From Williamsia deligens (GTDB lineage: Bacteria; Actinomycetota; Actinomycetes; Mycobacteriales; Mycobacteriaceae): a stretch of DNA of 64,000 nucleotides. Position 1 is the stretch's first letter; each line of letters opens with the position of its first letter. Under the pieces are notes generated by a model, which saw only the letters and a list, made by a program, of their open reading frames with translations, searched no databases and was not told where the DNA came from. The stretch spans positions 620,001-684,000 of the forward strand of contig NZ_JAMTCI010000001.1 of NCBI RefSeq assembly GCF_024171765.1. Direction: 5' to 3'. Positions 48,800 to 64,000 of the stretch are shown in pieces. A program made the translations under genes and the position numbers.

Positions 48800-48825
48800 C
48801 GCCGGGGAGACGGCCCCATGACCGT

Positions 48826-51129
48826 TCAGTCGGCGATGGCCTCGACGGCGGTCTCGATCTCGTCGATCCGCGCGGCCGGCACCCGCACGGGCCCCGGCGT
48901 GTAGGTCACCGCGACCAGATCCCCGGTGTAGCGGAAGACCCCTCGACGCTCCCGCAGGTCCCAGTGGACCGGGCCGCGGGCGTCGAGTCCCACCGAGATC
49001 CCGGTCCACGGTGCCATCCCGACCAGCTGTACCTGACCGGTGAGCTCCGCGACATCGGAGCCGTCCACAGCGAGGACGAGGTCCCACCGGAGGTGTGGGG
49101 CCACCGTGGCGCGGAGCGTCACCGTCCGCGCGCCCTGCGGGACACGGCCGCCCTCGACCTCCGTGAACACGCCGTAAGCGTTGTAGCCGAGATGAACTCG
49201 TCCACCCTCGACCCAGATGAGGTAGCCACCGAGCACGTCGCCATGCGCGACGAGGACACCCTCGTCGCCGGTCGTGTACCCGCCCAACTCGACGTCGACG
49301 GTGACGTCGCGGTAGGCGGTGAGCCGTGACGACCGATAGCGCTCCAGCGGCGGGGTACCCGCGAGGACCCGGACCGGGTCGGCGAGCCTGGCCTCCGACG
49401 GTCGACGACGGGCGAGGTCGTCCCGGGTGAGCAGTGGGAACACCGTGTTGGCCCAGGCGTTCTCGTCCCACGCGGCGGCGAGGTCGGCCACGACGTCGGG
49501 CCGCTCGGCGGCGAGGTCGTGCAGCTCGGTGGGGTCGGTGCGCACGTCGAACAGCTGCCAGCGCGGGTCGTCGATGTCGCGCCCGGGTTCGGCCAACGCC
49601 AACAGCTTCCAGCCGTCGCGATAGAACCCGCGATGGCCGGTGATCTCCGAGTACTGCTCCCGGTGCCGCGACGGGGCGTCGGGCGATCGGAGCACGTCGG
49701 CTGCGGACACCCCGTCGAACGACCGCACAGGCAGGCCGTGTCGGGTGGGAGGTGCGTCGATGCCGATCAGATCCAGCAGCGTCGGCGTCACATCCGTGAC
49801 GTAGGTGTACTGATCGCGCACACGCCCATCCGCGGTCAGACCGCGAGGCCAGGACAGGAGGAACGGGACCCGCACCCCGCCGGCGAAGGTCTGACCCTTG
49901 TAGAAGCGGAACGGCGTGTTCGAGGTCTGCCCCCACCCGCGGGGGTAGTGCACCCCGAGGCGTGCGGTGCCGATCCACGCGGGATCCTGCGGGACGTCTC
50001 CGACCCACCGGGGGTCGGCGATGTGCGCGAACTCCGCGAAGTAGCTGCGTGTCCCGACCGGTCCACCCTCGGCCGTGCCCCCGTTGTCCGAGGTGAACAC
50101 GATGATCGTGTTGTCGAGTTCACCCAGCGCCTCCAGGGTGGCGACGATCCGCCCGACACTGGCGTCGACACTGCCCACCATGCCCGCGTAGACCTCCATG
50201 TACCGGGCGAACAGCTCCTGATCGTCCGCCGACAGGGAATCCCACGGCGGGACGTCGTATCCGGGTTCTCTGTTGCGCGGGGCCTGCCGCGTCCCCGGCG
50301 GGAACAGCCCGCTCTCGAGTTGCCGGGCGAAACGCTCCTCCCGCAGGGCATCCCACCCGCGGGCGTATCTGCCACGATGGGGCTCGCGATCGGTGTCTTT
50401 CACCTGCAGCGGGCCGTGCATCGCGACGTGGGCGAAGTACAGCAAGAAGGGTTTCGTCGCGTCGTGGGCCCGCAGACCGGTGATGTACTGCACGGCTCGA
50501 TCCGTGAGGTCGTCGGTGAGGTAGTAGCCGGGTGGGTACTCGTCGACCGTGGACGGGCTGTTGTCGACCGTGATCTGGTTGGGGTGGAAGAAGGAGTTCA
50601 GACCCTCGAGCGACCCGTGGTACCGATCGAAGCCGCGCTGGGTCGGCCACGAGTCACGCGGGCGTCCGGGTGCGATGTTCGCGTCGCGCACGAGGTGCCA
50701 CTTGCCGACGGCGTACGTCGCATACCCGTGGGATCGCAGGATCTCAGGGAGGGTCGCGACGTCCTCGGCGAGTTCGAGCCGAAGGCCGGGGTAGCCCGGG
50801 TCGGCGTTGGCGACGTAGCCGTACCCGGCACGATGCGCGTTGACGCCGGTGAGCAGTGCGGCGCGCGAGGGCGAACACAGGGGAGTCGTGTGGAAGTTGC
50901 TGAAGCGCAATCCCTCCTGGGCGAGTCGGTCGAGATGGGGAGTGGGGATCTCGGATCCGTAGGGCCCGGTGACGCTGAAACCCATGTCGTCGACGAGCAC
51001 GACCACCACGTTGGGGGCGCCGGCCGGGGCGGACGCCTCGTCCGGCCAGTCCGGGGATGAGTCGGCCGTGGTCCGCCCGATCTGTCCCCGGAATCCCTCG
51101 TACCCCCGCGCATGCGGCGGGACGCCCAT
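48826..51129 (-). CDS. Arylsulfatase-type sulfatase (Cys type)
   Basis: 767 residues, alkaline-phosphatase fold. Metal-binding LVDDMG (Asp47-48), the formylglycine motif CSPSR at Cys85, AVGKWHL, and the second metal site FTSDNGGTAEGG. After about residue 540 a C-terminal beta-domain follows, as in the long mycobacterial AtsA/AtsD group. Cys85 must be oxidised by a formylglycine-generating enzyme, not encoded in the window. It hydrolyses sulfate esters to release sulfate. No signal peptide is seen, so it is probably cytoplasmic. ATG overlaps the stop of the dioxygenase gene (TGATG). Confidence 0.93.
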   Translation of the reverse strand: MGVPPHARGYEGFRGQIGRTTADSSPDWPDEASAPAGAPNVVVVLVDDMGFSVTGPYGSEIPTPHLDRLAQEGLRFSNFHTTPLCSPSRAALLTGVNAHRAGYGYVANADPGYPGLRLELAEDVATLPEILRSHGYATYAVGKWHLVRDANIAPGRPRDSWPTQRGFDRYHGSLEGLNSFFHPNQITVDNSPSTVDEYPPGYYLTDDLTDRAVQYITGLRAHDATKPFLLYFAHVAMHGPLQVKDTDREPHRGRYARGWDALREERFARQLESGLFPPGTRQAPRNREPGYDVPPWDSLSADDQELFARYMEVYAGMVGSVDASVGRIVATLEALGELDNTIIVFTSDNGGTAEGGPVGTRSYFAEFAHIADPRWVGDVPQDPAWIGTARLGVHYPRGWGQTSNTPFRFYKGQTFAGGVRVPFLLSWPRGLTADGRVRDQYTYVTDVTPTLLDLIGIDAPPTRHGLPVRSFDGVSAADVLRSPDAPSRHREQYSEITGHRGFYRDGWKLLALAEPGRDIDDPRWQLFDVRTDPTELHDLAAERPDVVADLAAAWDENAWANTVFPLLTRDDLARRRPSEARLADPVRVLAGTPPLERYRSSRLTAYRDVTVDVELGGYTTGDEGVLVAHGDVLGGYLIWVEGGRVHLGYNAYGVFTEVEGGRVPQGARTVTLRATVAPHLRWDLVLAVDGSDVAELTGQVQLVGMAPWTGISVGLDARGPVHWDLRERRGVFRYTGDLVAVTYTPGPVRVPAARIDEIETAVEAIAD

Positions 51130-52046
51130 CAGGCGACGAGGACCGGCTCGTCGACCTCCGAGTAGTGGCTGGCGTCACCGGCGATCACCCGACTGCGCTC
51201 GCCCTGCACGCTCTGCGGCACGTCACCGGCGAGGGTGATCCGCTCCAGGCGCCGGTACTGGTCGTCCCAGTCGGCCACGGCGTAGTGCTGGGTGGCGCGG
51301 TTGTCCCAAATGGCGACGTCGCCGAGGGCCCACTGCCAGCGGACAGTGTGCTCGAGCTTGGTCACCCGGTCCTGCAGGAGGGTGAACAGGGCCTGCGACT
51401 CCTTGGTCGAGAGCCCGATGAAACCCTTGACGAAGTGGCCGAGGAGCAGGGTCCGCCTGCCCGTCTCGGGGTGGATGCGCACGACGGGGTGCTCGGTCTC
51501 GAAATACGTCGACTGGAACTCCTTGCGGTACTCCGCGGTCCTGCCCGAGTTGATCTTCTCGGCGGACGTGGCCGCGTAGTCGTAGGCGTTGGTGTGCGTC
51601 GCCCAGAGGTTGTCCACCAGTGCGCGCAGGCTGACCGGCAGCGATTCGTAGGCGGCGACCTGCGACGCCCAGGTGGTGTTGCCGCCGTACTCCGGCAGCG
51701 ACACGGCACGCAGGATCGACGCCTTGGGGATGCGGTCGACGAAGGTCACATCGGAATGCCAGCTGTTGGCCTTTCCGTAGTCCGAATCGATTGCCAGCGT
51801 GCGGGTCCCGCGCGACGTGACCGTCGGATGCGGGGTCGTCGGGCTGCCGAGCAGCTCCGCGAAGGCGTACTGCGCGTCGTCGTCGAGGTGGTGCTGATCC
51901 CGGAAGAAGACCACCTGGTGCTCGAGGAGCGCCCTGCGGACGAACTCGACGGTGTCGCGGTCGAGGTCGCCGCCGAGGCGCACACCCTCGATCCGGGCTC
52001 CGATGTGGGCGCCGAGTTTGACGGCAGTGGGCTCTGATCCCGACAT
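51129..52046 (-). CDS. TauD/AtsK-type alpha-ketoglutarate dioxygenase
   Basis: 305 residues, Fe(II)/2-oxoglutarate dioxygenase. The metal triad is WHSDVTF (His-x-Asp) and the distal His in [14 protein letters not shown], followed by the 2OG-binding Arg in [11 protein letters not shown]. TauD frees sulfite from taurine; AtsK frees sulfate from alkyl sulfate esters. Pairing with a sulfatase favours the AtsK role. ATG 52046 has AAGGG upstream. Transcribed with the sulfatase and divergent from the second importer. Confidence 0.9.
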
Positions 52047-52126
52047 GGTGGACCCTTTCGCACGGGGAAGCAGTCTGCGCTGCTCGAACCGGGCCACCCG
52101 ACCACGGCTCGTCCGTGAGCGTCGAC

Positions 52127-57429: not shown

Positions 57430-57440
57430 GTAGGTACGAT
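57430..57440 (+). promoter_or_regulatory. arsR promoter with operator GTAGGTACGA
   Basis: GTAGGTACGA (57430-57439) overlaps the -10 box TACGAT (57435-57440). The same ten bases occur at 60541-60550 in the exporter/FAD-monooxygenase promoter. Expected start of transcription near 57447, leaving a short leader with a strong ribosome site. Confidence 0.65.
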
Positions 57441-57474
57441 GAACATCGTCACTGTCGCGAGGGAGAGGGACGTC

Positions 57475-57810
57475 ATGGCCGACGCCGACGGGCATCCGGA
57501 TCTCGACGAGTTCGACCTGTCGGCGGTGCTCCACGCCCTCGCCGACGACAACCGTCGCAGCGTGATCGCCCAACTCGCCGAGGAACCCACGGGGGCGGAG
57601 CAGTTCTGCAGCGTGTTCGGTCTGCCCTGGGCGCCGTCGACCCGCACCCACCACTTCCGGGTGTTGCGCACCGCCGGCCTGATCTGGCAGCGCGACGTCG
57701 GCAACGGACGCATGACCCGTCTGCGTCGCGACGACATGGACACCGTCTTCCCCGGACTCCTCGACGCGGTGCTGACCGCGGACGCGGCGAACCGCCCGAA
57801 GGTCGCCTGA
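57475..57810 (+). CDS. ArsR-family repressor
   Basis: A 111-residue winged-helix protein: LSAVLHALADDNRRSVIAQL, then the recognition helix region WAPSTRTHHFRVLRTAGLIW and the wing QRDVGNGRMTRLR. ATG 57475 follows GAGGGAGAGGG; an earlier ATG at 57439 overlaps the -10 box. Only one Cys is present, so it is not a metal sensor of the ArsR/SmtB type and more likely binds a small organic ligand or reacts to oxidation. It reads toward the P450 gene and probably represses the cluster to its right. Confidence 0.85.
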   Translation: MADADGHPDLDEFDLSAVLHALADDNRRSVIAQLAEEPTGAEQFCSVFGLPWAPSTRTHHFRVLRTAGLIWQRDVGNGRMTRLRRDDMDTVFPGLLDAVLTADAANRPKVA

Positions 57811-57861
57811 CCCCGACGGGATCGACGACCCCCGGGCGGGGCCTGGACGACTGAGTGACAA

Positions 57862-57904
57862 GACGGTCGTGACCGGACGCGGTCGCCCTCAGACCACGAC
57901 CGTC
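57862..57904. terminator. Bidirectional hairpin between arsR and the P450 gene
   Basis: GACGGTCGTG (57862-57871) pairs perfectly with CACGACCGTC (57895-57904), the second arm including the P450 stop codon. Confidence 0.7.
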
Positions 57905-59120
57905 ACCAGGTGACGGGCAGCGCCAGCGGGCGGTGGACGAGAATGCCGGTGTCCCAGGCGATCTCCCCAGGATCCACGGCCAGCCGCAGACCGGGGAGAT
58001 CGGTCACGAGTCGCCGAACGGTCTCCGTGATCTCCATCCGCGCGAGGGCCGCGCCCATGCAGTGGTGCATGCCGTAGCCGAACTGCAGGTGGCGGCGTCC
58101 CTGCCGGGTCACGTCGATCACCCACGGATCGGGGTAGACGGCGGGATCCCGGTTGGCCCGGTGTGCGTCGGCGTAGACCACATCGCCGGGGTGCAACGTC
58201 CCGTGCTCGAGCGTCACCTCGCGGGTCGCAACTCGGGGGAACGTCGAGATGCGGCCCAGTGGCAGCAGTCGGAGGAACTCCTCGACCACCGCCGGGATCG
58301 ACTCCGGCTGCGCCACCAGGTGGTCCCACAGCTCAGGACGGGAGAGGGCCACGTAGGCGATCTTGCCGATCACCGATAAGACGTTCTGGTCGCCGCCCAC
58401 GATCGATCCCAGCAGGATCGCTGTGTACTCCTCGTCGGTGACCGGCGGTGACACGGAGTCCCGCGCGGCGAGGAGATCGCTGATGAGGCCGGGCTCGACC
58501 TCCCGGCGCCCGGCCACCAGGTCGCCGATGTAGCCGTACAGCGTCCAGAAACTCTCGAGCAGCGCGGGGACGTCGGCGTCGTCGGCGATCTGCATCTCCC
58601 GGGACAGCGCCCGGAACCCCGGGACGTCCGAGCGGGGGATGCCGAGGAAGTCGACATTGACCCCGATGGTCAACGGGTCCAGTAGCGTGCCCATCAGATC
58701 GGCCCCACCGGCGTCCCGGTCGGTCCGAAGCTGCTCGATCGCATCGTCGAGGGCACGGTTCACGCTCGGAACCCGACGCGCGACGGCCGCGGCACTGTAG
58801 GACGACCCGACGAAACCCTTGAGCCGCCCGTGATCCGGGTGATCGAGGTTGAGGAGCATCTCGGTGGGCATGATCGTCGGCAGGAACGTGGGCCCGTCGT
58901 CGACGTTCGTCTCCGCCCGCGCGAAGCTGACGTCGGTGAGCACCTGGTGGACGTCGCGGTACGACGTCAAGTGTACGGCCCGGTGGCCGCTGGGCAGCTG
59001 CACCTGCGGCAGGCCTCCCGCCGACGTCTCGTCGAGGGGGACGGTCATCCCTGGGGGGTGGAGTCCGGGGAGGTCCCGGACGTCCACCCGGGCTCCTGTG
59101 GCTGCGGTCGACACGGTCAT
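57903..59120 (-). CDS. Cytochrome P450
   Basis: 405 residues. The heme-binding loop FGYGMHHCMGAALARME has the proximal Cys; ExxR is EEFLRLL. The I-helix reads LGSIVGGDQNV where most P450s have AGxET/DT, so the usual oxygen-activating Thr is replaced by Gln. That is seen in some P450s with assisted or unusual chemistry. ATG 59120 has AGGAGG upstream and follows the exporter stop by one base (TGAGATG). Redox partners are not nearby. Substrate unknown. Confidence 0.92.
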   Translation of the reverse strand: MTVSTAATGARVDVRDLPGLHPPGMTVPLDETSAGGLPQVQLPSGHRAVHLTSYRDVHQVLTDVSFARAETNVDDGPTFLPTIMPTEMLLNLDHPDHGRLKGFVGSSYSAAAVARRVPSVNRALDDAIEQLRTDRDAGGADLMGTLLDPLTIGVNVDFLGIPRSDVPGFRALSREMQIADDADVPALLESFWTLYGYIGDLVAGRREVEPGLISDLLAARDSVSPPVTDEEYTAILLGSIVGGDQNVLSVIGKIAYVALSRPELWDHLVAQPESIPAVVEEFLRLLPLGRISTFPRVATREVTLEHGTLHPGDVVYADAHRANRDPAVYPDPWVIDVTRQGRRHLQFGYGMHHCMGAALARMEITETVRRLVTDLPGLRLAVDPGEIAWDTGILVHRPLALPVTW

Positions 59121-59121
59121 C

Positions 59122-60486
59122 TCATCCTCCTGCTGTGGTTGTCCCGTCACCGGCGGCGACGGACGAACGGCGACGGATCGCCAGGATCGCGACGGTGACG
59201 ATCACCAGCAGAGCGATGAGGATCGCGACGGTCGTCGCGAACGCGTGCTGGTAGACGTCGGGGTGGCCGTACTGGCCGGCAGCGGTGTCGTCGGCGGCGG
59301 CGCCGGACAACCGGCTGCCGACGACGGCCGAGATGACGACGGCGTATCCGGCCACGAACACCGCCTCGCTGCCGATCCGGAAGAAGTTGAGCAACCCTGC
59401 CGCCGTCCCGGTCTTCTCCTCCGGGACGACCGACAGCGCGTGCCCGTCGACGAGACCGATCGGCAGTCCGAAGCCCAGGCCCAGGAACACCATCGGGACG
59501 AGGATCCACAGCACCGATTGCCCCTGCGTGAGGAGCAGGATCCCGGCGTTGCCGACGATCAGCGCGATCAGGCTGGCCACGACCACCGCCCCGGCGGTGA
59601 GCGCGCGGATGCGGGTGACGAGCTGCGCCACCAGCAGCGGCGTGACGAGGACCGGGATGGTCATCGCGAGCATCACCAGACCGGACCGTCCGGCGTCGAG
59701 ATCCTTGATGCCGCTCAACGCGCTGGGCAGATAGGTCAGCAGGGTGACGAAGCCGATGGAGCCCGCGACCGGGACGAGGCACATGGCCAGGAACTCCCGG
59801 TTGCGCAGCAGACCGATGTCGAGGATCGGGCCGCCGGCCGCCCCCCGCGCGGGACGCACCGCGGGCAGGACACGCGACCCGACCGCCGCGGCAGCGAGGA
59901 TCACGGCGTGGACGACGAAGACGCCGCGCCAGTCGACCGCCGCCACGAGAGCGCCGGAGATGGTGGGACCCAACGCCAGTCCGAGACCGTTGACGGTGCC
60001 GAAGATCGCGAAGGCGTGCGTGCGGCGGGCGCCGTCGTAGGCGCTGGAGATCAGTGAGCTCGAGCCGGTGAGGATGGCGGCGGCGCCGACACCGGCGACG
60101 ACGCGGCCGATGTCGAGCAGGGCCAGATTCGGGGCCAGGGCGCTCAGGACACTGCCCAGGGTGACGGCGATCGACCCCAGCGTGAACGTCTGCCGGTGAC
60201 CGATGCGGTCGCTCAGCGCACCCCAGACCAGGGTGGCGAGTGCGAACGCGACGTTGAACCCGTTGACGACCCATTGCAGCGCGGTCGGGTTCGACCCGAG
60301 GTCCTCGGAGATGCGCGGCAGCGCGATGGCCGTGCCCGCGATGGCTGTCGGTGTGACGAACTGTGCCGCCAGGACGATCGGTAGCGTCCACCGGCTCGGC
60401 GGGTCCTGCGACGGAGCTGTCGGTGTATGTGGTGTCGCGGCCGGCCCGGTCGCGTCGACCGGCGTCTCGGTGCTCGATGAGGACAC
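59122..60486 (-). CDS. MFS drug/metabolite exporter (DHA2-like)
   Basis: A 454-residue transporter with 12-14 membrane segments. Motif A is LSDRIGHRQTFTLG, motif C is LGPTISGALVAAVDW, typical of proton-driven exporters. GTG 60486 has GGAAGGAAGAG upstream. It heads the exporter-P450 operon and is divergent from the FAD monooxygenase across a promoter with two palindromic operators. Likely exports a small molecule made or altered by its neighbours. Confidence 0.88.
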   Translation of the reverse strand: MSSSSTETPVDATGPAATPHTPTAPSQDPPSRWTLPIVLAAQFVTPTAIAGTAIALPRISEDLGSNPTALQWVVNGFNVAFALATLVWGALSDRIGHRQTFTLGSIAVTLGSVLSALAPNLALLDIGRVVAGVGAAAILTGSSSLISSAYDGARRTHAFAIFGTVNGLGLALGPTISGALVAAVDWRGVFVVHAVILAAAAVGSRVLPAVRPARGAAGGPILDIGLLRNREFLAMCLVPVAGSIGFVTLLTYLPSALSGIKDLDAGRSGLVMLAMTIPVLVTPLLVAQLVTRIRALTAGAVVVASLIALIVGNAGILLLTQGQSVLWILVPMVFLGLGFGLPIGLVDGHALSVVPEEKTGTAAGLLNFFRIGSEAVFVAGYAVVISAVVGSRLSGAAADDTAAGQYGHPDVYQHAFATTVAILIALLVIVTVAILAIRRRSSVAAGDGTTTAGG

Positions 60487-60537
60487 GGCTCTTCCTTCCG
60501 TCGGCGGTACCGCGCTGTGGGCGGCATCGCTATGGCT

Positions 60538-60572
60538 CTCGTAGGTACGACTCTTATAGTAGGTACTACGAG
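60538..60572. promoter_or_regulatory. Divergent promoter with two tandem palindromic operators
   Basis: TCGTAGGTACGA (60539-60550) and TAGTAGGTACTA (60557-60568) are two 12-bp palindromes sharing GTAGGTAC/AGTAGGTACT cores, centred 18 bp apart. They lie inside a longer repeat CTCGTAG ... CTACGAG (60538-60544, 60566-60572). The second overlaps a rightward -10 box TATAGT (60555-60560). The 10-base core also sits in the arsR promoter. Confidence 0.7.
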
Positions 60573-60606: not shown

Positions 60607-61998
60607 ATGCCCCATCACGAACAGCGGGTGGAGATCGCGGTCGTCGGAGGCGGCCCGGTCGGCATGTGCATCGCGGCCGAGCTGGCGCTGGCGGGCCGCA
60701 GGGTGACGGTGATCGAGACCCGGACCCAGGTCGACGAGCGTCCGCGCGCCGGGACCGTGCACGCGCGGTCGCTCTCCCATCTCGCACGGCGGGGATACAT
60801 CCCATCCCGCCGAGCGGACGAGATCGTCTCCGGCGCAGACCGCGTGGTGACGACCCCGTTCCAGTTCGCCGCGCAACCGGTGCTGACCATCAGCGCGCCC
60901 GCCGTCGAACCCGCCCCAATCGCGGGTATCCCGCAGGCCCGCCTCGAGGCCGCGTTCGAGCAGCGCGCGCGGGCACTGGGTGCCACGATCCTGCGGGGAC
61001 ACACCGTCTCCGATCTCCGGGTCCACGACGACGGCGCCGAACTCGACGTCACCCCTGACCGTCTCGACGCCGACACGACCGTCCTGCGCGCCGACTGGGT
61101 GGTCGGCGCCGACGGTGCCCGCGGGATCGTCGCGCGTCACGGCGACTTCGGGGCGACGACTTATCCCGCCACCATGAACGCGATCGCGGGCCTCGCGGTG
61201 GTCGGCGACCCGGCACCGCCCCCGGGATGGTTCCCCACCGACGGCGGATGGACGCTGCACAACCCCAATTCCTCCGGGGCCGCCCGCGTCATCGCCCTCG
61301 ACTTCTCCGGCCCCCTCGCCGACCGGTCCACACCCGACGAGTCCGAGTTCCGGGCCCGCGTGGCGTCGATCCTGGGCCGCGACCCCGGCCTGTCGCAGAT
61401 CTCGCACCTGACCCGGTTCAGCGACTTCGGCCGTCACCGCACCCGCATGCGGGACGACCGCCTGGTGGTCGTCGGCGACGCCGCACACGTCCACTACCCC
61501 CTCGGGGGGCAGGGCCTGAACACCGGCATGCAGGACGCGTTCACGCTCGGATGGCGCCTGGCACAGGTGATCCGCGGCGGACTCGACGTCGATGTCCTCG
61601 ACGAGTGGTCGCGATCGCGGGTGGCCGTCGCCGGCACCGTCGTCGCCAACACGGTCCTTCAGGCGCGGATGATGAACCCTGCGGACACGGCGACGCGTGA
61701 CGCCATGCTCGCCATGCTCGCGGTCCCCCGGGTTCATGACGCGGTGGCCGAGATGATCAGCGGGCAGTTCCAACCGGGCTTCCAGACCGACCTCGTGGTG
61801 GAGACCGGGTCGGGGGACACGTACACCCTCGCCGACCTGCTGCGCGCCGGTCGCCCCGTCGCGATCGTCCCCGACGACACCGTGGAGCCACCGACACACC
61901 TCCCGGACACCCGAGTGATCGTGGGGAAGGTGACACCGGAGCAACCGTGGGTCGCCGCCGTGATCGCACCCGACGGCTACCTCGCCGCCGCCGTGTGA
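60607..61998 (+). CDS. Class A FAD monooxygenase
   Basis: 463 residues of the PHBH fold. FAD motifs: GXGXXG in VVGGGPVGMCIAAELA, the mid DG motif VVGADGARGIVARH, and GD motif VVVGDAAHVHYPLGGQGLNT. The C-terminal thioredoxin-like tail (from about 385) is short. Relatives hydroxylate phenols or inactivate antibiotics (rifampicin and tetracycline monooxygenases). Its promoter is shared with an exporter. ATG 60607 has GAGGAG upstream. Confidence 0.88.
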   Translation: MPHHEQRVEIAVVGGGPVGMCIAAELALAGRRVTVIETRTQVDERPRAGTVHARSLSHLARRGYIPSRRADEIVSGADRVVTTPFQFAAQPVLTISAPAVEPAPIAGIPQARLEAAFEQRARALGATILRGHTVSDLRVHDDGAELDVTPDRLDADTTVLRADWVVGADGARGIVARHGDFGATTYPATMNAIAGLAVVGDPAPPPGWFPTDGGWTLHNPNSSGAARVIALDFSGPLADRSTPDESEFRARVASILGRDPGLSQISHLTRFSDFGRHRTRMRDDRLVVVGDAAHVHYPLGGQGLNTGMQDAFTLGWRLAQVIRGGLDVDVLDEWSRSRVAVAGTVVANTVLQARMMNPADTATRDAMLAMLAVPRVHDAVAEMISGQFQPGFQTDLVVETGSGDTYTLADLLRAGRPVAIVPDDTVEPPTHLPDTRVIVGKVTPEQPWVAAVIAPDGYLAAAV

Positions 61999-62030: not shown

Positions 62031-62699
62031 TCACACCGCGAGCGCACCCACCGCCGCGCGGACCTCGGCGACGGCCGACGCGGTGTCGGTGAAATGGATG
62101 GCCCGCCAACCCGCCGCCCGAGCCGCCGCACAGTTCTCGGCGAGATCGTCGACGAGGATGTTGTCCTCCGGCCGCACGCCGTTGCGCTCTGCGGCGAGGG
62201 CGAAGATGGCCGGATCGGGCTTGCGCACGCCCACGCGACACGAGTCGACGAGATCGGTGACGACGTCGTCTAGTCCGACCATGGGCCGCCAGTACGGCTC
62301 CCACTCGACGACGTTGTTGGACAGGATCCCCACCTGCACACCGGCGTCGAGCAGCTCCACCGCCAGATCACGGATGCCGGCGTTCACGACGTGACCGTCG
62401 AACCACTGGCGGCCGAAATCGGGCTCACTGCGCGACAGGTCGAGATCGGGACGCTCGGCACGAATCGCGTCGTGCAGCTGGGTCACCCACGTCCGCTCGT
62501 CGACGACGGCGAGTTCGATCGCGGCCAGCGGGGGCAGACCGGACTGCGCGCCGACGGTTTCGATGGCCCGTTTGAGCACGGCGACAGGGATACCCGTGAC
62601 CTGCTCGTACCGCAGGAAGAGCTCGTCGAGCGGTGGCGACAGGACGCCGCCGAAGTCGAACCAGACGAACGGCGACCCGCCGACCGGACGCGCGGTCAC
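62031..62699 (-). CDS. HAD-family hydrolase
   Basis: 222 residues. HAD motif I is FDFGGVLSPPLDE, where the second Asp of DxD is Gly; motif II in VGILSNNVVEW; motif III Lys in RVGVRKPDPAIF; motif IV ILVDDLAENC. Members are phosphatases, epoxide hydrolases or dehalogenases. GTG 62699 overlaps the AfsA-type stop, so it is coupled to that gene and may supply the phosphatase step of butyrolactone synthesis (inference). The missing second Asp weakens a standard phosphatase role. Confidence 0.8.
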   Translation of the reverse strand: MTARPVGGSPFVWFDFGGVLSPPLDELFLRYEQVTGIPVAVLKRAIETVGAQSGLPPLAAIELAVVDERTWVTQLHDAIRAERPDLDLSRSEPDFGRQWFDGHVVNAGIRDLAVELLDAGVQVGILSNNVVEWEPYWRPMVGLDDVVTDLVDSCRVGVRKPDPAIFALAAERNGVRPEDNILVDDLAENCAAARAAGWRAIHFTDTASAVAEVRAAVGALAV

Positions 62700-63684
62700 T
62701 GGACCATCGTCGCGACGTCCGCGCCCAGCAGGCTCAGGTGGACGTCGCCGCGTGCGATCACGTCGTCGCCCTGCTGCAGCCGGACAGCGGCGGTCGCTCC
62801 GCCGACGCCGTCGGGTTCCACGGTCGCGCGGGCCTCGGTGGGCCGTTCGAACTCACCGAACGCGGTGAACTCCATCTGCAGGCGGTGCATCACCATGCGG
62901 CTCGTGTCGAGTCCGAGGGTGACGTTCGCCGACGCCATCGCGATCTGGCGTGCCGCCTCGAACTGCAGCATCCCCGGGACGTGGTCGAGAGCGTGGTCGA
63001 ACAGCGACGGGTGGTCGGTGTCGATGATCGTCAGGGCACGCAGCTCGGTCCCCTCGAGCTCGGGGTTGGCGAGGATGGCGTTGCGCGGGTTGTGCCGTCC
63101 CACCGAACCGGGACGCATCCGCGCGACGTGCAGTGCAGCCGGGATGCGGTGCTGCGGGGGCAGACCCAGCGCGTCACGACCCCGGACACGGATGCGCTCC
63201 CACACGGTCGACGGCATCCACTGGTACGTCATCGCCTCGCGTGCGGCGAGGCGGCCCTCGATGGTGGCCGACATCTCGAGCGTCAGACCGATCACCTGCC
63301 CGTCACGCTTCTTCTCGACGACGACATGGGCGTCGATGACGCAGTGCCCGGGGCACGCTCCGATTCGCAGCGTCGCGGCGTCGAGGATCTCGAAATCTGC
63401 CGCCCCGAAGACGAACTTCTCCGTGCGCGCCACACCGAGGAAGGTGTGGGCGTAGTAGATGGCGACCTGCCGGAACACCTCCACCATCAACAGCGGGTCG
63501 TAGGTGGCGGACGCACCGCGGTGTCGCTGAAGTAGGAGTGGTTGCGGGGCAACTGCGCCGCGAACACGGCGCCGTCGGCCGTCGGCTGGGCGTCGGTGAG
63601 GAACACCTCGGCGATCGACTGCCGGTGGACGATCCCCCGCGGGATGTTCCGGTCGAAGGTGAGGGGTTCGAGTACTGCGGTCAT
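62696..63684 (-). pseudogene. AfsA-type (A-factor/butyrolactone) synthase with a frameshift
   Basis: A double hotdog protein of the AfsA family, which condenses a beta-ketoacyl chain with a glycerol derivative to begin gamma-butyrolactone signals. From ATG 63684 (GAGGTG upstream) the frame reads LTFDRNIPRGIVHRQSIAEV, FLTD, LPRNHSYFSDT, then leaves the family. The next frame picks up at RGASATYDPLLMVEVFRQ and continues intact to 62696 (second hotdog: DHALDHVPGMLQFEAARQI). The shift lies near 63510-63535. Apart from one indel the protein is complete, so a sequencing error is possible. Confidence 0.78.
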
Positions 63685-63743: not shown

Positions 63744-64000
63744 TCACTCGGTCCGGACGGCGATGTCGTAGGACCATCCGTTCGCGACGTTGCGAGGCGG
63801 GTCGAACAGGGTCGAGAGGCCATGGACGGCCGACGTCGCCGCGACGCTGTTGCGATCGGTGAACAGCGGGATGGCGACGTTCTGCGACAGGATCCGGTCG
63901 TCGACGCGGGCGAAGAGCTCCGCACGTCGTGTGGTGTCGGTGGCGGTGGTCGCGTCGACCAACCAGCGATCGACCTGCGGGTCGGACAGTTTCGATCCCC
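63744..64000 (-). CDS. Peptide-type ABC receptor, C-terminal part
   Basis: The last 85 residues of a family-5 binding protein entering from the right edge. KLSDPQVDRWLVDATTATD, then RAELFARVDDRILSQNVAIP and LFTDRNSVAATSAVHGL are the usual ending with the receptor's last helix and two strands. It lies 59 bp upstream of the AfsA-type gene on the same strand, so it may lead that operon. A third peptide-type importer could follow outside the window. Confidence 0.72.
   Translation of the reverse strand, partial: GSKLSDPQVDRWLVDATTATDTTRRAELFARVDDRILSQNVAIPLFTDRNSVAATSAVHGLSTLFDPPRNVANGWSYDIAVRTE

Follow-up and report, generated by a model that had tools for sequence, protein, structure and literature searches.

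Whether a single operator ties a small ArsR-family repressor of Williamsia deligens to a neighboring cytochrome P450, exporter, and monooxygenase, and to what ligand such a repressor would respond, are the questions raised by the end of a 64,000-nt stretch of contig NZ_JAMTCI010000001.1 (positions 620,001 to 684,000; hereafter the window). The 10-mer GTAGGTACGA is present there in two exact copies, one in the promoter of arsR (57430-57439) and the other (60541-60550) in the divergent promoter between the genes of a major facilitator superfamily (MFS) exporter, which is followed by the P450 gene, and a flavin adenine dinucleotide (FAD)-dependent monooxygenase. The proposal of a first-pass annotation of the window that one operator links these two promoters is strongly supported by comparative genomics: sequence comparison among relatives establishes the candidate operator, its association with ArsR and MFS genes, and the conservation of the cluster in which they reside.

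A common candidate operator in the arsR and exporter/monooxygenase promoters

Exactly two exact copies of GTAGGTACGA were found in the genome (4,410,574 bases), though the number of one-mismatch places (69, or 69/30 = 2.3 per variant) is near that of the reversed control (79), and the count alone is unremarkable, as expected for such a 10-mer. With up to one mismatch, the window contains four matches (1.15 expected; four or more in 5 of 100 shuffles), including one-mismatch copies at 60559-60568 and at one place elsewhere; of the 18 occurrences of GTAGGTAC in the genome, 3 are at this locus. What stands out is the location of both exact copies, in two promoters separated by 3.1 kb (a probability of about 0.0014 for two random places); since this estimate is post hoc, the promoters of relatives were compared.

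The element common to these promoters is GTAGGTACNAT-N5-T(A/C)GTAG(C/G)TA. A 26-bp matrix was built from 19 sites of relatives; the two window sites were left out on purpose and two further sites (L020_ars and L021_div) as near-duplicates, and the number of independent sites is below 19 since L018, L020, and L021 are close Nocardia relatives. Applied to the window, this relatives-only matrix ranked the divergent site first (30.8 bits) and the arsR site second (22.5 bits), with the next unrelated site at 5.7 bits and a maximum of 11.7 bits over 20 simulated windows. A sequence-only model derived from the same 19 sites gave 22 matches at E < 0.01 in 22 loci (438,966 bases), and all 22 are located, by coordinates, in promoters of arsR, MFS, or MFS/FAD-monooxygenase genes. 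Three of them, at L125 13875, L126 8069, and L131 10101, are neither training sites nor near-duplicates. Column conservation in 10 operator-anchored promoters is 0.76 within the operator vs. 0.48 and 0.54 in the flanks, the latter values being lowered by the ungapped alignment of the rows.

A 24-bp pattern of the operator, which the divergent site of the window matches without mismatches, was searched for in 251 genomes of the family. At zero or one mismatch it was detected in 15 rows, or 14 distinct sites in 11 genomes, all of them at ArsR/MFS loci by coordinates. The sites were found in 9 of the 10 genomes with a close ArsR (at least 75% identity), and the remaining genome, G064, has two sites with two mismatches each. 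In the genome of W. deligens, up to three mismatches, the pattern is confined to the two promoters (4 rows, of which 3 overlap at the divergent promoter; reversed control, 2). The regulon is most simply read as comprising these two promoters.

In front of more distantly related arsR genes, the operator takes the form of a clean 22-bp inverted repeat, AGGTNCG-N8-CGNACCT. Within 200 bp upstream, it is present with up to three mismatches in 23 of 30 loci (3.2 expected) and perfectly in 11 of them. The pattern had been read off some of these 30 loci, and new loci were then taken as a held-out test: among 394 genomes of the class, ArsR was detected at E <= 1e-27 in 7, including W. deligens itself, and the other 6, all from other families, have ArsR proteins with 52-58% identity. 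A perfect repeat is located directly upstream of arsR in all six homologues, and all 9 perfect copies within 118.5 kb lie upstream of arsR. Upstream of arsR in these other families (L184-L189), two operator copies are found 28-43 bp apart, with 0-2 mismatches. No site with up to three mismatches was found upstream of arsR in 7 of the 30 loci (L100, L101, L104, L110, L119, L120, and L121); in L104, which is identical to L126, arsR probably follows the MFS gene in a common operon, with the operator before the MFS gene.

The two tandem 12-bp palindromes noted in the first pass are indeed present, in imperfect form, in the divergent promoter (TCGTAGGTACGA at 60539-60550 and TAGTAGGTACTA at 60557-60568); a better reading takes each of them as half of a single 22-26-bp operator. 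The strict tandem-palindrome reading is ruled out as the general form by the AGGTNCG-N8-CGNACCT repeat of the distant homologues. Because the operator halves in the clade of the window are themselves nearly palindromic, the window by itself is compatible with either reading; its divergent operator consists of two self-palindromic halves 18 bp apart. The dyad is also present as a sequence feature in the arsR promoter (AGGTACG-N8-CGTCACT at 57432-57453), with a degenerate right arm that retains 5 of 7 dyad matches. The suggestion that both copies cover -10 boxes did not hold: a consensus scan detected no sigma-70-like promoters in either operator region, and the resemblance of TACGAT and TATAGT to -10 hexamers is one of visual inspection alone.

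The ranking of both window sites by the relatives-only matrix, together with the six positive held-out loci, argues that this non-classical ArsR very probably represses its own gene, the MFS-P450 pair, and the FAD monooxygenase gene.

Conservation of the cluster

The P450, exporter, and FAD monooxygenase genes recognized in the first pass were confirmed by profiles, and the conserved locus proved to be larger, also containing genes for an AfsA homologue and a likely HAD-family phosphatase. The gene order arsR-P450-MFS-FAD monooxygenase-HAD-AfsA is shared with Gordonia (L015), Nocardia (L016, L018, L020, and L021), Rhodococcus yananensis (L019), and four further loci (L134-L137). By matching coordinates or identities, L019, L020, and L021 appear to come from the same genomes as G155, G250, and G121 of the family set and are not independent of them.

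In the 251 family genomes, ArsR was detected at E <= 1e-15 in 41 and the FAD monooxygenase at E <= 1e-60 in 14. ArsR identity reaches 75% or more in 10 genomes, including that of W. deligens, and the full set of P450, MFS, FAD monooxygenase, HAD, and AfsA genes is present in 8 of them. The other two (G140, corresponding to L125, and G049, corresponding to L126) have ArsR and MFS genes with no orthologous P450, FAD monooxygenase, HAD, or AfsA genes nearby; an unrelated P450 gene adjoins the ArsR-MFS pair in L126, and each genome carries an AfsA gene elsewhere. In L125 (9746-13905), the P450, FAD monooxygenase, HAD, and AfsA genes seem to have been lost between arsR and ABC (ATP-binding cassette)-type genes, ArsR, MFS, and both operators are kept, and genes of a TetR-family protein and an alpha/beta-hydrolase lie in between.

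In a second clade (L127 and L129, and L128 in part), an ArsR with 57-59% identity accompanies MFS, FAD monooxygenase, P450, HAD, and AfsA genes, and operators of the AGGTTCG type are located between arsR and the MFS gene. A third group possesses the same enzymes and no ArsR homologue; all five are present in L138, L139, and L023, and all but AfsA were detected in L022. An Rv3651-like gene is a neighbor of the cluster in L139.

The ArsR protein

The translation start of arsR, and with it the length of 111 residues given in the first pass, is supported by the conserved N-terminus MADxDGHP. The protein scores below formal cut-offs in profile searches, reaching 38.8 bits against NF033788 (E 6e-10; cut-off 55) and 20.9 bits against Pfam HTH_20 (cut-off 27). 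A CxC pair in helix alpha-3 is the metal-binding feature of ArsR/SmtB repressors; it is absent from this protein, whose only cysteine is Cys45, which bears out the earlier remark on missing metal-binding cysteines. All 18 aligned ArsR sequences have this cysteine, and its counterpart in the solved structure closest by sequence, 7txm (titled 'Transcriptional regulator'; E 1.5e-19), is likewise a cysteine; we take this structure to be PyeR. The single invariant cysteine leaves thiol chemistry possible. An AlphaFold2 model built from a 7-sequence alignment was discarded as unusable (mean predicted local distance difference test score 54.8), as it had strands where the ArsR fold is expected to have helices, and Cys45 was not placed.

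Gene content of the locus

Genes were assigned by Pfam and NCBIfam profile searches (Table 1). The MFS and P450 genes are separated by 1 bp and the HAD and afsA genes overlap by 4 bp, so two minus-strand operons, MFS-P450 and HAD/afsA, are likely.

Table 1. Candidate operators and genes of the arsR locus (positions in the window)
Feature	Position	Strand	Basis
Candidate operator, arsR promoter	57430..57455	+	Relatives' matrix, 22.5 bits, second in window
arsR, non-classical ArsR-family protein, 111 aa, single cysteine Cys45	57475..57810	+	Profiles, alignment
Cytochrome P450, 405 aa, haem motif FGYGMHHCMG	57903..59120	-	Profiles, sequence
MFS exporter, 454 aa, upstream of P450 gene	59122..60486	-	Profiles, sequence
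Candidate operator, divergent MFS / FAD monooxygenase promoter	60541..60566	.	Relatives' matrix, 30.8 bits, best in window
FAD-dependent monooxygenase, 463 aa, FAD_binding_3, GGGPVG and GDAAH motifs	60607..61998	+	Profiles, sequence
HAD-superfamily hydrolase, likely phosphatase, 222 aa	62031..62699	-	Profiles
AfsA-like gene (gamma-butyrolactone/butenolide synthase family), frame broken near 63514-63517 in assembly	62696..63684	-	Profiles

The 62696-63532 part of the AfsA-like gene contains the AfsA hotdog domain (PF03756, 127 bits, cut-off 24), and the gene scores below the cut-off of the ScbA/BarX equivalog (NF041195, 160 vs. 200 bits). The gene is a single open frame in relatives, e.g., in L134, L135, and L019, and its break in the window may be a mutation or an assembly error. 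Upstream of afsA, genes of an ABC peptide-type transporter and a rhodanese-like protein were read from the sequence rather than from profiles (63744-64000; L142 745-6926), and a binding-protein homologue is also located there in L015, L016, L021, and L134 (26-28% identity). Matches of two out-of-frame window queries (ABC ATPase and perm2) were disregarded in the comparison of loci. Farther away (48800-52100), sulfatase-like and TauD-like genes recognized by eye suggest a sulfur-source region adjoining the locus.

Proposed regulation and its alternatives

As a whole, the locus is best explained, we believe with moderate confidence, by a local ArsR autorepressor that is released by an organic effector, likely one that is formed in the AfsA pathway. 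An ArsR dimer would bind the 22-26-bp operator both upstream of arsR and between the divergent MFS-P450 and FAD-monooxygenase genes and would hold all three transcription units low; the effector would free ArsR, and the exporter and the tailoring oxygenases would be turned on when the compound is present. The AfsA and HAD genes of the conserved locus provide a concrete candidate for the organic ligand. It would most likely arise along the AfsA-HAD-P450-FAD-monooxygenase pathway, as a product or an intermediate, because local repressors of exporters often respond to the substrate of that exporter. In such a pathway, AfsA would form a phosphorylated butenolide-type skeleton, HAD would dephosphorylate it, the P450 and the FAD monooxygenase would oxidize it, and the MFS protein would export the product.

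A more specific version, which we regard as tentative, makes ArsR the receptor for an AfsA-made lactone signal of its own cluster, derepressing the exporter and the oxygenases and, in L135 and L019, also afsA in a feedback loop. In these two loci, a further operator copy precedes afsA (L135 13418-13439, 0 mismatches, 21.4 bits by the matrix; L019 6224-6245, 1 mismatch, 15.9 bits). The genome of W. deligens has a single AfsA locus, and its best match to the ScbR/ArpA-type TetR receptor profile NF041196 reaches 58 bits, below the cut-off of 150. Among the 16 genomes examined, 8 have an ScbR-type receptor above this cut-off, and in G023, G229, G049, and G140 it adjoins a separate AfsA gene. Among the genomes with the full cluster, G000 and G006 (92 bits) lack a receptor of this type.

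Several observations weigh against the proposed account. The window sites are degenerate, with two (arsR) and three (divergent) mismatches to the clean 22-bp pattern, and the sequence-only model detects them poorly: in the search of the 22 loci, the divergent site scored E 0.74 and the arsR site was not listed, in the window with filters off they scored E 0.11 and 0.024, respectively, and genome-wide a single match at E <= 10 was obtained (60530-60550, E 7.4). The 22-locus search also left two training sites, the L015 divergent and L136 arsR sites, above E 0.01. The 24-bp pattern is unspecific when up to two mismatches are allowed (45 rows vs. about 140 in the reversed control). Regarding the pathway, no operator was found before afsA in 7 of the 9 loci checked, including the window (<= 5.1 bits), and in the window the frame of afsA switches at 63514-63517, with the conserved N-terminus in one frame and the remainder in another. 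Three full-cluster genomes (G064, G066, and G155) have an above-cut-off ScbR-type receptor, on contigs other than that of the cluster, and the best scores of three others (G121, G183, and G250) fall slightly short of the cut-off, at 140-142 bits; the absence of a TetR receptor is not general among full-cluster genomes. Finally, operator-bearing ArsR-MFS pairs occur with no AfsA gene nearby (L125, L126, L130, L132, L133, L184, L185, and L189), so ArsR need not sense an AfsA product.

These last pairs, which have no AfsA or FAD-monooxygenase homologues in 19-20 kb, make plain efflux control a serious rival, to which we assign a smaller though appreciable probability: an ordinary drug or xenobiotic efflux repressor, as part of an ArsR-MFS pair, may have come to lie beside an AfsA cluster, its ligand being an external toxin that the P450 and the FAD monooxygenase would detoxify. 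Consistent with this, ArsR and the operator occur in L131 and L186-L188 with no MFS or AfsA homologue detected, and the FAD monooxygenase distantly resembles rifampicin monooxygenases, with 176.5 bits against the equivalog NF033145, below its cut-off of 800. An ArsR-family protein, PyeR, has also been described to repress genes for an MFS transporter and a xenobiotic reductase (PMC7950407). Efflux control accounts less well for the five-gene AfsA set that stays with ArsR in 8 of the 10 close-ArsR genomes and in the second clade (L127, L129, and part of L128), or for the operators located directly before afsA in L135 and L019.

Redox or electrophile sensing through Cys45, by which the cluster would answer reactive electrophiles, possibly including unsaturated lactones, appears unlikely. 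The invariance of this cysteine and its counterpart in 7txm agree with it, as does the induction of the pyeRM-xenB operon by hypochlorous acid (HOCl) (PMC7950407). However, a lone cysteine cannot pair within the monomer, no other gene typical of oxidant defence was noticed in the cluster, and the ArsR model is too poor for placing Cys45. A chance origin of the repeat, or its recognition by a different regulator, e.g., a TetR protein, is highly improbable. In favor of this view, the frequency of the 10-mer by itself in the genome is not below expectation, and a gene of the TetR family is found close to arsR in L125 and another inside the cluster region of L129. Against it, the operator is conserved at both promoters in relatives and the held-out tests were positive; in L125 and L126, the operator remains next to arsR and MFS in the absence of nearby AfsA, HAD, and FAD-monooxygenase genes.

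Comparison with known systems

AfsA-type enzymes make the hormone-like lactone signals of actinomycetes, and SrrA, the receptor of the butenolide system named below, is of TetR type. The enzymes of the proposed autorepressor locus have their nearest analogue in the SRB butenolide system of Streptomyces rochei, described with SrrX, SrrP, SrrG, SrrO, and the receptor SrrA (PMC7564063, PMC12301235). Both clusters combine an AfsA-like synthase, a phosphatase (its activity here predicted from the HAD family), and a P450; they differ in that the receptor of the SRB system is SrrA, and the present locus has an ArsR protein and an MFS/FAD-monooxygenase pair. The gbl clusters of the related genus Rhodococcus (GblA, GblR, and GblE) likewise contain an AfsA-type synthase, but there the TetR-family gene gblR adjoins gblA, whereas here a co-conserved arsR lies at the far end of the cluster; receptors of AfsA-type lactone signals are described as TetR-family proteins (PMC5735094).

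The nearest described analogue of the regulator is PyeR of Pseudomonas aeruginosa, an ArsR-family autorepressor of an operon with the MFS transporter PyeM and the xenobiotic reductase XenB (PMC7950407). Both systems link an ArsR-family protein, predicted here to be an autorepressor, with an MFS transporter; they differ in that PyeR controls a single operon, compared with divergent promoters here, and AfsA, HAD, and P450 are not named in the part of that source available. A search of titles and abstracts found no published pairing of ArsR with butyrolactone, butenolide, or AfsA, the subscription literature being mostly outside its reach; in the accessible part of PMC8062868, the ArsR and lactone-related terms are unrelated to each other.

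We read the locus as an AfsA pathway under product- or intermediate-responsive ArsR control, a new arrangement of parts that are individually known. Regardless of the ligand, the 22-bp candidate operator can serve directly in gel-shift experiments and in reporter strains throughout this ArsR subfamily, and if the ligand is the pathway product, a conserved AfsA locus with an ArsR regulator would widen the repertoire of lactone receptors.

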